A program made the position numbers and the translations under genes. The notes under the pieces were generated by a model. It had not been told where the DNA came from. It searched no databases and saw nothing but the letters and a program-made list of their open reading frames with translations. From an uncultured Holdemania sp. (lineage in GTDB: Bacteria; Bacillota_I; Bacilli_A; Erysipelotrichales; Erysipelotrichaceae), in assembly GCA_947037125.1 (NCBI GenBank), contig CAMQTJ010000009.1, positions 1 to 52,278 of the forward strand: a DNA stretch of 52,278 nt, in the 5' to 3' direction. The first letter of the stretch is position 1. The number at the start of each line of letters is the position of its first letter. This document shows positions 14,606 to 35,889 of the stretch, in pieces.

Positions 14606-16303
14606 TTACAACTTTTTTATTTCTTCAAATAATTCAACAGCTGCAATTTTAAGACCATCATCACCTTTGTTTTCAAGTCCTAAACAAGTAAATATTTCAC
14701 CTACAAATATGTCTTGATCAAATAATTGCATAAACATTTCATCAATGATTGGCAAGCACTGCTCCTGTTTTTGCATTGGCCCAAACGGATTTGCGAAAAA
14801 TGTTGTTGAAATACCTTTTTCTTGTGTTGTTCCTAAAGCAAAACGTTTACCAGTTACGAAGATATCTTTAGCCTCATCAATATTATCAACACGTCTTAAT
14901 CCACGTTTATCAGTATAATTATTGGCATAAATAAACATATCAATTTTATGCGATGTTACAATTGTACTATAAGGAGCTGCCGGTATTACAACTCTTGCAT
15001 TAGCACTTTCCGGATTAAAGAAAATTGAACGGTCCATATCCCGATAAGCACTACCTTTATCTAAATCATCAAGTCGTACAAAGGCACCAATTTCAGTTCC
15101 TTGTCCGACAATTTTCCCATCTTCAATATGCATTGAACCCATATCATCAAATATAATTTCTGAATACATAACTTCTTGTTTTGTTACATGGCTTAATGCT
15201 TCAATCGTTTCAGATTTACCAGCACCACTATCACCTATAAAAGCAATTCCTTTAGTAGTTCCATCTTTTAAATGTAAATTAATCATAGCTCCATGTAATG
15301 GTAACCAACCTTTAGACTGCATTTTTAAGTTGTGTAATGTTAGACTCATCTTCTTTATGTAACCAAAATATTCGATTACTTCATTATAAGACACTTTACC
15401 TACCCATATATCATTTTTTTCATCATGGAAAAAAGTAGTTTCATTTTTATTATCTTTATTACCAAACAAAACCATACAATCCGGCTTTTTATTGATACAT
15501 TCTTCATCTGTTGCTATTTCGAATAAATTCGATAAAGCTACAGCACTACTTGTAAAATCACGTTGAAAATACACAAATGTTAATAACGATCCAACTTTAC
15601 ATGGAAAACAAAACCATTCTTGATCTCCCTTTACAAAATCTGAAATAGGATTATAATCAGCTTGAACAAATGAACCTACTCTTTTATTACTTTTTGGATG
15701 TATAATTAATGGAGTTCTTAGCATTATTGAATTGATAAATGGAATATCAATTAAATCACTATAAATATAAGGCACATCCCATTTATAATTTCTTAATAAA
15801 AATGATGCATTAGTACCTGCTTGAAGTTGTCTATAAACATGATTTTTACTACCTTGAACTTTTTGTTGGATTTTACGATAAAAATCAAGAATCATTTTAT
15901 TAAATTCATTATCTGCATCCATAAAGTTTGAATTTTGTAATCCACCAGAATTTGCAGTAAATACAATTGAATATCGTTGCATATCACGCCAATGTAAGTA
16001 AGCATCTTCTATAATTTGAATAAATCTTGCACGATCTTGTAATAATGGATGTCTAATATCTTCAATATCTAAAACCATTAATACTTGCAAAACTTTTTTA
16101 ATATCTTCAACGACCGGTTCAATTGGAATGTCTTTAGTTATCCAATAATAAAGTTCATAATTAGTTGTTTTATATTGTTGTAAAAAAGACTTTAAAAACA
16201 TTTCAAATGCTTCGCCCGCCATTAATTCATCAATACTTGTATAATATGTTTTTGTATAGTTAATAAGTGCTAAATTATTGTTCAAATATAATGCTTCTTT
16301 CAT
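14606..16303 (-). CDS. PEPCK/HprK-superfamily P-loop protein (phosphoenolpyruvate carboxykinase-like)
   Basis: 565 residues. The C-terminal half carries the fold shared by ATP-dependent PEP carboxykinase and HPr kinase. The P-loop is GDSGAGKSE at about 357-365, with an acidic metal-site stretch IIFDDMGSM, then TEIGAFVRL, an Arg-containing RVVIPAAPY strand and ALGTTQEKGISTTFF, which aligns with the late GT-E-GI region of PEPCK. The P-loop spelling (GDSGxGKSE) is that of HPr kinase; classical PEPCK has GLSGTGKTT. The N-terminal about 330 residues contain many aromatic residues and no domain I recognise. The start is set at 16303 because GAGGAGG lies seven bases upstream; a longer frame to 16318 would contain that site. 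It may be PEPCK-type gluconeogenic enzyme or a protein kinase. Confidence 0.7.
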   Translation of the reverse strand: MKEALYLNNNLALINYTKTYYTSIDELMAGEAFEMFLKSFLQQYKTTNYELYYWITKDIPIEPVVEDIKKVLQVLMVLDIEDIRHPLLQDRARFIQIIEDAYLHWRDMQRYSIVFTANSGGLQNSNFMDADNEFNKMILDFYRKIQQKVQGSKNHVYRQLQAGTNASFLLRNYKWDVPYIYSDLIDIPFINSIMLRTPLIIHPKSNKRVGSFVQADYNPISDFVKGDQEWFCFPCKVGSLLTFVYFQRDFTSSAVALSNLFEIATDEECINKKPDCMVLFGNKDNKNETTFFHDEKNDIWVGKVSYNEVIEYFGYIKKMSLTLHNLKMQSKGWLPLHGAMINLHLKDGTTKGIAFIGDSGAGKSETIEALSHVTKQEVMYSEIIFDDMGSMHIEDGKIVGQGTEIGAFVRLDDLDKGSAYRDMDRSIFFNPESANARVVIPAAPYSTIVTSHKIDMFIYANNYTDKRGLRRVDNIDEAKDIFVTGKRFALGTTQEKGISTTFFANPFGPMQKQEQCLPIIDEMFMQLFDQDIFVGEIFTCLGLENKGDDGLKIAAVELFEEIKKL

Positions 16304-16540
16304 AAAATTCCTCCTCATATTTATATTACTTTTATAATATATGATAATTATATATTATTTTGCTTAATTAATAAACTATCAATTGCTTTATATTAAGTTA
16401 AAATCGAAATTTTCATCATATTATCAATATTTTATTAACTATTTGTAATTTAAAATTACTTTTTCACAAATATTTCACACTTTTTTGATTAAAATATTGA
16501 TTTTTTTCTAATATTTTATGATTAATTGTGTTTTACAAAA

Positions 16541-16568
16541 TAAAACCCATAACATTAATGTTATGGGT
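16541..16568 (-). terminator. Terminator of the tRNA/rRNA modification operon
   Basis: A perfect 24-base palindrome at 16545-16568 (acccataacatt and its complement) followed on the minus strand by TTTTATTTT. It comes 12 bases after the stop at 16580. Confidence 0.85.
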
Positions 16569-22432: not shown

Positions 22433-23677
22433 ATGTCATTTATAAAAGAAAATCTTAATTTAGATCCAATTGTTGATAATGTATTTAGTGTTGTGAAAAA
22501 AGCTCAAGTTGCAAAAGAAATATATGGTAGTGATAATGTAATTGATGCAACCATTGGTTCATTATTTAATGAGGATTTATCACTTACTACATTTAATTCT
22601 TTTTATGATATTTATAATAATTTAAGTAATGTTTTAAAAGCTAAATATGCTCAAAGTTTTTCTGGCAATGATGCATTTAAACAAGCTGTTTTAAAGTGGC
22701 AATATAATGGTAGTAACATTAACCTTAATCCACGTGTTATAGCAACCCCTGGTGGTACTGGAGCTATTAGTTGTTGTATATCGACATTACTTGATGAAGA
22801 TACGACATTAATTATTCCAAATATTGGATGGTCATCTTATAAGTTAATGGCGCAGCAAAATAATCTACATATTCAAGAATATGAAATGTTTGATAGTGAT
22901 AGATTTAATATGGAATCATTTAAACATATATGTACTGATGTCGCACGTAAACAAAATAAGTTATTAGTTATAATAAATGATCCATGTCATAACCCTACAG
23001 GTTATTCTATGTCATTAAATGAATGGCAACAAGTAATTGATTTTATAAATGAATTATCAAAAACAATAAGTTGTACCATTTTAAATGATATTGCCTATAT
23101 TGATTTCGCTTATAATAATGAAGTAAGAAAGTACCAAGACCTATTTAATGATATTAGTGATAATGTCGCAATTATTACAAGTTTTACTATTTCTAAATCA
23201 TGTAGTGCCTATGGTCTTAGATGTGGTGCTGCTATAATCATGGCAAAACAAATTGAAGTTTCGAATCAAATAGAAATAATCTTTGAAAAGTTTGCCCGTT
23301 CAATGTGGTCTAATATCTCTAATTCATGCATGGTTACATTTAGTGACATGATTAATAACGATGTTGATAAATACCAAATTGAGTTAAATAATTATACTGA
23401 TTTATTAAGAACTAGAAGTAAAATTATTATTCAAGAAGCAAAAGAATGTAACTTAGTTTTATATCCTTATGTTGAAGGTTTTTTTGTTACAATAAAAGTT
23501 GATGATATTGATGTTTTAAATAAATATCATGATGAATTAATTGCAAATAATATCTATACTGTAAAGGTTAATAAGGGTATTAGAATAGCTATTTGTTCAT
23601 TACCAATAGAGAAATGTTATAACCTTGCAATTAAACTTAAAAACATTTTAGATAGTACCATTATAGTGTCAAAATAG
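22433..23677 (+). CDS. Class I/II PLP-dependent aminotransferase (aspartate/aromatic type)
   Basis: A 414-residue fold-type I aminotransferase. Visible sites are the cofactor-stacking region TPGGTGAISCCIST, the substrate carboxylate motif NDPCHNPTGYS, the Asp/Tyr pair in LNDIAYIDF, the PLP Lys in TSFTISKSCSAYGLRCGA and a C-terminal Arg in NKGIRIAICSLP. The spacing resembles the TyrB/aspartate aminotransferase group more than the second enzyme at 46555. The start at 22433 is chosen because GAAGG lies seven bases upstream; the longer frame from 22391 would contain this site. Amino-acid preference cannot be told from sequence or from the small membrane-protein neighbours. Confidence 0.85.
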   Translation: MSFIKENLNLDPIVDNVFSVVKKAQVAKEIYGSDNVIDATIGSLFNEDLSLTTFNSFYDIYNNLSNVLKAKYAQSFSGNDAFKQAVLKWQYNGSNINLNPRVIATPGGTGAISCCISTLLDEDTTLIIPNIGWSSYKLMAQQNNLHIQEYEMFDSDRFNMESFKHICTDVARKQNKLLVIINDPCHNPTGYSMSLNEWQQVIDFINELSKTISCTILNDIAYIDFAYNNEVRKYQDLFNDISDNVAIITSFTISKSCSAYGLRCGAAIIMAKQIEVSNQIEIIFEKFARSMWSNISNSCMVTFSDMINNDVDKYQIELNNYTDLLRTRSKIIIQEAKECNLVLYPYVEGFFVTIKVDDIDVLNKYHDELIANNIYTVKVNKGIRIAICSLPIEKCYNLAIKLKNILDSTIIVSK

Positions 23678-35570: not shown

Positions 35571-35837
35571 TTATGCAACTACTTTTTGAGCGCGTAGTAC
35601 TTCTTCAATTGTGTTGATAGCCATTTCTTCATCTTCACCATCGCAAGATACAACGATTTCTGATTGAGTTGGAATACCTAAAGACATAACTCCCATGATT
35701 GATTTCATGTTAACTGAGCGACCTTTGTAAGCAACTTTTACTTCACTTTTGAATTTGCTTGCTGCATTAACTGCAACTGTAGCAGGACGTGCGTGTAATC
35801 CAACTGGATCAATTACTAAAACTGTTATTTCTTTCAT
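35571..35837 (-). CDS. ptsH: Phosphocarrier protein HPr
   Basis: 88 residues, the full HPr fold. It takes phosphate from enzyme I at His15 (GLHARPA) and passes it to sugar-specific EIIA domains. Ser46 (NMKSIMGVMSL) is also present, the residue that HPr kinase phosphorylates to create the CcpA co-regulator in low-GC Gram-positives. The cre-type site before mglB fits this circuit. ptsI is not adjacent; the gene lies 63 bases after rlmH at the end of the dnaB/wal cluster. AGGAGG precedes the ATG. A TTGACA box at about 35877 suggests its own start, though I see no good -10. Confidence 0.95.
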   Translation of the reverse strand: MKEITVLVIDPVGLHARPATVAVNAASKFKSEVKVAYKGRSVNMKSIMGVMSLGIPTQSEIVVSCDGEDEEMAINTIEEVLRAQKVVA

Positions 35838-35889
35838 ATTAATTTCCTCCTAATACCTACATTCATTTTAAACTATTTTGTCAACGGTT

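Follow-up and report, generated by a model that had tools for sequence, protein, structure and literature searches.

The PEPCK-like gene and its surroundings

The gene under study, which resembles phosphoenolpyruvate carboxykinase (PEPCK), is intact in the window, the whole stretch of 52,278 nucleotides that was analysed (Table 1). Counted from the first ATG, the open reading frame covers positions 14606-16318 of the minus strand and encodes 570 amino acids, and a second methionine at 16303 gives a protein of 565. The sequence AGGAGG overlaps the ATG at 16318 and stands just 5' of the ATG at 16303. The start at 16303 was preferred because of this placement, which covers the upstream ATG, and because many relatives start with MKE; the length of 565 residues given in an earlier note on this DNA is thus supported. 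Residue numbers of the protein refer to the 570-residue form.

The gene for an rRNA methylase lies upstream of the PEPCK-like gene, with genes for U32 peptidases further upstream and a GGDEF gene downstream. The terminator-like hairpin upstream of the PEPCK-like gene suggests that it is probably transcribed alone and thus monocistronic in the window. The HPr gene with Ser46 reported in the earlier note was recovered, the Ser46 region reading NMKSIMG. Elsewhere in the same genome (G000:C29:7816-8088, locus L002), a second, weak match to residues 226-323 of the PEPCK-like protein was found (E 0.0019, 32% identity).

Table 1. Positions of the features discussed in the text. Positions are those of the window, except for the divergent paralogues, which are given by locus.
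Feature	Position	Strand	Basis or remark
PEPCK-like gene	14606..16303	minus	565 aa (570 with the ATG at 16318); ORF and AGGAGG
N-terminal region, residues 6-194	15737..16303	minus	partly helical in weak model; no relatives found
PEPCK-like region, residues 195-570	14609..15736	minus	profile alignment and weak-model fold
YFGYIKK motif, residues 317-323	15350..15370	minus	counterpart of PEPCK Y207-K213; alignment and conservation
HG motif, residues 342-343	15290..15295	minus	H342 counterpart of PEPCK H232; alignment and conservation
P-loop GDSGAGKSE, residues 362-370	15209..15235	minus	alignments and conservation
DD motif, residues 391-392	15143..15148	minus	counterpart of PEPCK D268-D269; alignments and conservation
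R442	14993..14995	minus	counterpart of PEPCK R333; alignment and conservation
Terminator-like hairpin, between rRNA methylase gene and PEPCK-like gene	16545..16568	minus	consensus match only
Class I aminotransferase	22433..23677	plus	~6 kb from PEPCK-like gene; 24-50% identical to those at or near relatives
HPr gene	35574-35849	minus	PF00381, 99.4 bits
Divergent paralogues	L073:8048-9496; L074:7692-9080; L075:7714-9102; L076:8117-9532; L116; L117		

Distribution and conservation of the family

Relatives, full-length or partial, were present at E ≤ 1e-5 in 94 of the 145 genomes of the window's taxonomic family and at E ≤ 0.001 in 100 of the 392 genomes sampled from the phylum. The taxonomic family is probably Erysipelotrichaceae, since G057, a genome assigned to it, encodes a protein identical to that on a Traorella contig (L016 and L007). 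The matches listed from the phylum sample belonged to the window's class or nearer. Strong matches were found in 91 of the 100 genomes, and these are the carriers referred to below, which exclude the nine genomes with weak matches only. Also lactobacilli carry the family, and a copy on a plasmid of Limosilactobacillus fermentum is named phosphoenolpyruvate carboxykinase in the plasmid gene table, a name seen for this one copy. A phage or mobile-element origin of the gene was rejected: none of 50,697 phage records matched the protein, no match was confirmed in viral contigs, no PHROG matched at E ≤ 0.01, and the gene was present in one of 72,556 plasmid records.

The alignment of 59 members was drawn from 76 listed sequences, L015 being the window gene itself. 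The 17 sequences left out included 14 judged by eye to be close to kept ones, an overlong ORF (L051), a 1341-aa open frame matching over residues 6-494 only (L065), and a divergent paralogue (L090). The aligned members were 37-67% identical to the window protein and shared 38 invariant columns. The P-loop GDSGAGKSE was letter-perfect in 58 of the 59 and is therefore not due to chance. The exception, the outlier L089:7961-9607, reads GDSDIGKSE and has an altered YFGY-KK motif as well, which suggests that its activity is lost or changed.

Judged by its sequences, this is a large, conserved and uncharacterised family of bacterial enzymes related to PEP carboxykinase. Literature searches yielded no paper that we recognised as treating the family, which is not proof of absence.

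Profile and fold similarity to PEP carboxykinase

The window protein stayed under the Pfam cut-offs, its best match being PEPCK_ATP (PF01293; 19.4 vs 26.5 bits), and reached no NCBIfam cut-off, the best match there being the PEPCK subfamily NF006821 (27.7 vs 369 bits). At least two relatives, scoring 28.5 and 27.8 bits, exceeded the PF01293 cut-off of 26.5 bits, so the family stands at the edge of that Pfam model. Profile-profile alignment of the family with five canonical PEPCKs covered residues 258-545 (probability 95.3, E 2.1e-8). Among the 59 members, PEPCK_ATP matched 49 and Hpr_kinase_C 26, with best E values of 2.7e-7 and 0.0059, respectively. A single-sequence search of PDB sequences did not find PEPCK, and in the profile search of the same sequences an HPr kinase (HprK) chain (E 0.25) came ahead of PEPCK (E 1.3), both insignificant. 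The Pfam, NCBIfam and PDB sequence searches gave no confident match over the full length to any characterised family of PEPCKs, a match that in the earlier note would make the protein an ordinary enzyme.

The structure models used for the fold searches were weak, having been built from 8 and 4 sequences. With the weak model of residues 195-570 (mean pLDDT 44.6), all 50 Foldseek matches listed were PEPCKs (best E 9.4e-6; 78 matches at E ≤ 0.001), and so were all 50 matches listed by VIA-align, where the alignment spanned PEPCK residues 3-455 and Z reached 7.7, a value below 8, which can mean a common arrangement. Also with the full-length model, weak to the same degree (mean pLDDT 44.6), the 50 Foldseek matches listed were all PEPCKs (best E 2.7e-3). 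HprK was absent among the 50 matches listed. Because the models are weak, the unanimous matches are support and not proof, and on these models residues ~195-570 resemble the PEPCK fold.

By profile search, the first ~190 residues resemble no known family, and no Pfam family exceeded its cut-off over residues 6-194. The earlier suggestion that the N-terminal 330 residues fit neither PEPCK nor HprK holds for this part, but not for the remainder, where residues from ~258 onwards align to PEPCK and the weak model begins its PEPCK-like span at residue 195.

Conservation of the PEPCK residues

Positions in PEPCK are given here in E. coli numbering. The counterparts of Y207, G209, K212, K213, H232, S250, K254, D268, D269 and R333 were kept in 58-59 of the 59 aligned members, and the same ten in all 40 further sequences, nine being genes already included among the 59. 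The metal-site counterparts K323, H342 and D392 (PEPCK K213, H232 and D269) were present in 59/59 members and 40/40 further sequences, and the P-loop residues K368 and S364 (K254 and S250) in 59/59 members. Tyrosine and arginine at positions 207 and 333 serve oxaloacetate/PEP in PEPCK, and their counterparts Y317 and R442 were found in 58/59 and 59/59 members, respectively. The spacing of 19 between K213 and H232 is identical in PEPCK and the family. The register of the DD motif was taken from other alignments, as the profile alignment of the family with the five PEPCKs places it differently. The PDB titles of the fold matches name PEPCK mutants at R65, Y207, G209, K213, S250 and D269.

The counterpart of R65 is less certain. 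R201 stands opposite it in a global alignment of low confidence and is arginine in 44/59 members and 27/40 further sequences, and R213 is arginine in 58/59 and 40/40. For the adenine/ribose segment with R449 and T455, no counterpart was seen in the sequence alignments, and the profile match ends at residue 545 near the NTG motif.

The PEPCK fold with an HprK-style P-loop that the earlier note had proposed is thus supported by the profile alignment, the conserved residues and the fold matches of the weak models; the HprK spelling of the P-loop and the PEPCK-like motif NARVVIP (residues 440-446) were both located where the note had seen such motifs.

Gene neighbours and other oxaloacetate enzymes

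PLP aminotransferases made up 16 of the 117 ORFs at most 100 bases from the gene and 5 of the 838 remaining ORFs of ≥150 aa (84 loci, including L065 and L090, from 15 taxonomic families); the P value (Fisher 1.2e-11) is indicative, because the models used to recognise aminotransferases derive from the adjacent genes themselves, which may make the control rate an underestimate, and because related loci are not independent. Thirteen of the 16 shared the strand of the gene, coming from 8 of the 15 taxonomic families, and three were on the opposite strand; one of the 16 (L090) adjoins a divergent paralogue. The adjacent aminotransferases fall into types unrelated to one another: class I aromatic/aspartate-like, class V, and aspartate aminotransferase type Ic. 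The last scored 574 bits against an NCBIfam cut-off of 435, and among the matches listed for the remaining ones scanned no NCBIfam cut-off was passed.

Other enzymes of amino-acid metabolism were AsnA, directly upstream of the gene in L068 and L092, and threonine synthase, adjoining it in L064 (opposite strand) and L070. Formate-tetrahydrofolate ligase stood directly 5' of the gene in 11 loci, all from a single taxonomic family, and eight loci had glutamate dehydrogenase within the stretch around the gene, both named from one member and given with no background count. In the window and most other loci, no such neighbour adjoins the gene. The formation of aspartate from oxaloacetate would be the simplest common thread of these neighbours.

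In the draft genome to which the window belongs (95.7% complete), PEPC, PYC/OADA and GTP-PEPCK gave no match and no ATP-PEPCK exceeded the cut-off, so the search for a separate pckA proposed in the earlier note found none over the cut-off. PEPC and PYC/OADA were rare throughout the phylum sample (5/392 and 29/392 genomes). Canonical PEPCK was commoner in carriers (12/91, all in one taxonomic family) than in non-carriers (9/301), while PEPC was found in 0/91 and 5/301, PYC/OADA in 5/91 and 24/301, and the intermediate PEPCK-like group described below in 2/91 and 14/301, respectively. None of these four was present in 72/91 carriers and likewise in 266/301 non-carriers. If the gene simply took the place of canonical PEPCK, PEPC or pyruvate carboxylase, carriers would be expected to lack other oxaloacetate enzymes; since most non-carriers were without them too and canonical PEPCK was commoner in carriers, such a replacement is unsupported. 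Within a single genus whose genomes have in-frame TGA codons, PEPC was present in G248, G359 and G431, the PEPCK-like family in G475 and G489, and both together in none, the genomes being too few to test.

The main rival to a carboxykinase would be a small-molecule kinase or phosphotransferase that has the PEPCK fold but a different substrate from amino-acid metabolism (such as a keto acid or amino acid), and in which the metal site was kept and decarboxylation lost. The invariant P-loop and metal residues and the frequent amino-acid enzymes would suit it as well, and so would the unfixed counterpart of R65 and the carriers having canonical PEPCK too, but the retention of the Y207 and R333 counterparts argues against it, and we regard it as unlikely, though ahead of the other rivals.

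Divergent paralogues and an intermediate group

Divergent paralogues of ~465-485 aa were detected in six genomes also carrying the intact protein (Table 1). Compared with the family, five divergent paralogues gave a profile E of 2.7e-37, and the P-loop and metal residues were lost in them to varying degrees. At each of the four paralogue loci examined, the gene adjoins a phosphoribosyltransferase gene (PF00156 only) that reads like PyrR. A class V aminotransferase lies directly upstream of the paralogue in L074 and in the similar L090, the latter from an incomplete genome where no intact copy was found.

As degenerate paralogues exist in related genomes, the fold can persist without catalysis, and the window protein could by the same token be a catalytically dead regulator sensing nucleotide or oxaloacetate. 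The catalytic residues of its family are, unlike those of the paralogues, essentially invariant, and such a role is improbable.

The intermediate PEPCK-like group (L099-L111; ~520-580 aa) was present in 16 of the 392 genomes and scored 40-74 bits to PF01293, over the cut-off. Its alignment comprised 13 of the 16 found, of the same class as the window. In 7 of the 16, a PYC_OADA gene encoding 465-572 aa lies at a distance of 1.5-2.3 kb from the gene, which suggests a link of the group to oxaloacetate decarboxylation.

Relationship to HPr kinase

The motif GxSGxGKSE with a preceding HG, present in the window protein as LHG and GDSGAGKSE, is spelled as in the HprK of the same genome. The family profile also matched this HprK with a probability of 87.4 (E 3.7e-6), against 3.2 for the five canonical PEPCKs, a comparison of unequal depth (59 vs 5 sequences). 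TIGR00679 was weakly matched by 20/59 members at E ≤ 0.01, and the window protein missed the HprK cut-offs of both TIGR00679 (11.8 vs 240 bits) and PF07475 (11.6 vs 33.3 bits).

The separate hprK sought according to the earlier note was found: the genome encodes a full HprK on another contig (C11:36135-36641, 212.9 bits). HprK was likewise present in 73 of the 80 carriers tested (of 91), seven being without it at E ≤ 1e-10. The protein as a substitute for HprK is therefore disfavoured, and with it the kinase role that the earlier note had thought worth excluding. The likeness in the P-loop, the profile score against HprK, the weak TIGR00679 matches and the order of the two PDB matches speak for an HPr kinase or another HprK-type protein kinase/phosphorylase, but this reading has to face the true HprK in these genomes, fold matches listed that are all PEPCK (weak models), the invariant counterpart of K213, the more numerous and better matches to PEPCK_ATP than to Hpr_kinase_C, and the aminotransferase neighbours, and is very improbable. 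The protein is probably not a sugar-sensing HPr kinase, despite its similar ATP-binding loop.

Interpretation

The reading that we favour, with a probability of roughly 0.55, is that the gene encodes a divergent enzyme of the PEPCK superfamily, belonging to a lineage distinct from both the ATP and the GTP class, that probably interconverts PEP and oxaloacetate in aspartate metabolism. It rests on family membership, the conserved residues, similarity in profiles and in the fold of weak models, and gene neighbours, from which we infer the substrate, direction, nucleotide and the role of the N-terminal region. The C-terminal ~375 residues would form a shortened PEPCK fold, in which the metal would be bound through K323, H342 and D392 and the nucleotide through the P-loop. 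The interconversion of PEP + CO2 and oxaloacetate is the most likely reaction, and in many relatives the aminotransferase next to the gene may then convert the oxaloacetate to aspartate by transamination. The ~190 residues at the N-terminus may constitute an added oligomerisation or regulatory domain. A story of simple replacement is weakened by canonical PEPCK, which carriers have no less often than non-carriers.

PMC8100219, a review on the PEP-pyruvate-oxaloacetate node, names ATP-, GTP- and PPi-dependent PEPCKs, of which the ATP and GTP types are related to each other and the PPi type is not related to them. A broader proposal, which we put forward tentatively as being somewhat below even odds, is that the family forms a third class of nucleotide-dependent PEPCK, combining a P-loop like that of HprK with a shortened core of the PEPCK type and an extra domain at the N-terminus, and occurring in Erysipelotrichales, in lactobacilli and in relatives that read TGA and are probably wall-less. 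Its function would be anaplerotic and aspartate-forming, coupled to an aminotransferase, and it would be the source of the pseudo-enzyme paralogues beside the phosphoribosyltransferase genes.

If true, a further related PEPCK lineage would mean an added oxaloacetate enzyme where PEPC and PYC/OADA are rare. The family would also put the database name 'phosphoenolpyruvate carboxykinase' to the test, and its sequences, which lie between those of PEPCK and HprK, offer material on the divergence of carboxykinase and protein kinase.

Comparison with known systems

The ATP-dependent PEP carboxykinase (PckA, PF01293, EC 4.1.1.49) has the same order of motifs as the family, and the same counterparts of Y207, K212, K213, H232, S250, K254, D268, D269 and R333, and it stands among the fold matches of the weak 195-570 model. 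The two differ in that identity is ~21% over residues 258-545, the family has the extra ~190 N-terminal residues, and the P-loop is GDSGAGKSE instead of GLSGTGKTT. Also, the family is without a visible R449/T455 segment, its R65 counterpart is uncertain, and the window protein is below the Pfam cut-off. The GTP-dependent PEP carboxykinase (PF00821, EC 4.1.1.32) was among the top fold matches of the weak 195-570 model, and the window protein matches its NCBIfam model weakly (14.2 vs 504 bits). DUF4914 (PF16260) had weak matches in 26/59 members at E ≤ 0.1, around the P-loop where seen, and none of the three members with scores seen passed the cut-off.

The intermediate PEPCK-like group shares with the family the motifs YFGE-KK (YFGEHKK), HGG, P-loop and LHDDA (profile E 1.8e-9 over residues 314-403), and unlike the family it keeps GLSGSGKST, an invariant GR motif and the NTG...T segment. 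HprK (PF07475, TIGR00679) has the same HG, the same GDSGxGKSET spelling and the DD motif, whereas its length differs, the family has a PEPCK-type lysine before the histidine, and the family co-exists with true HprK. The family is best regarded as a branch of its own within the PEPCK/HprK superfamily, one whose metal site is of the PEPCK type.
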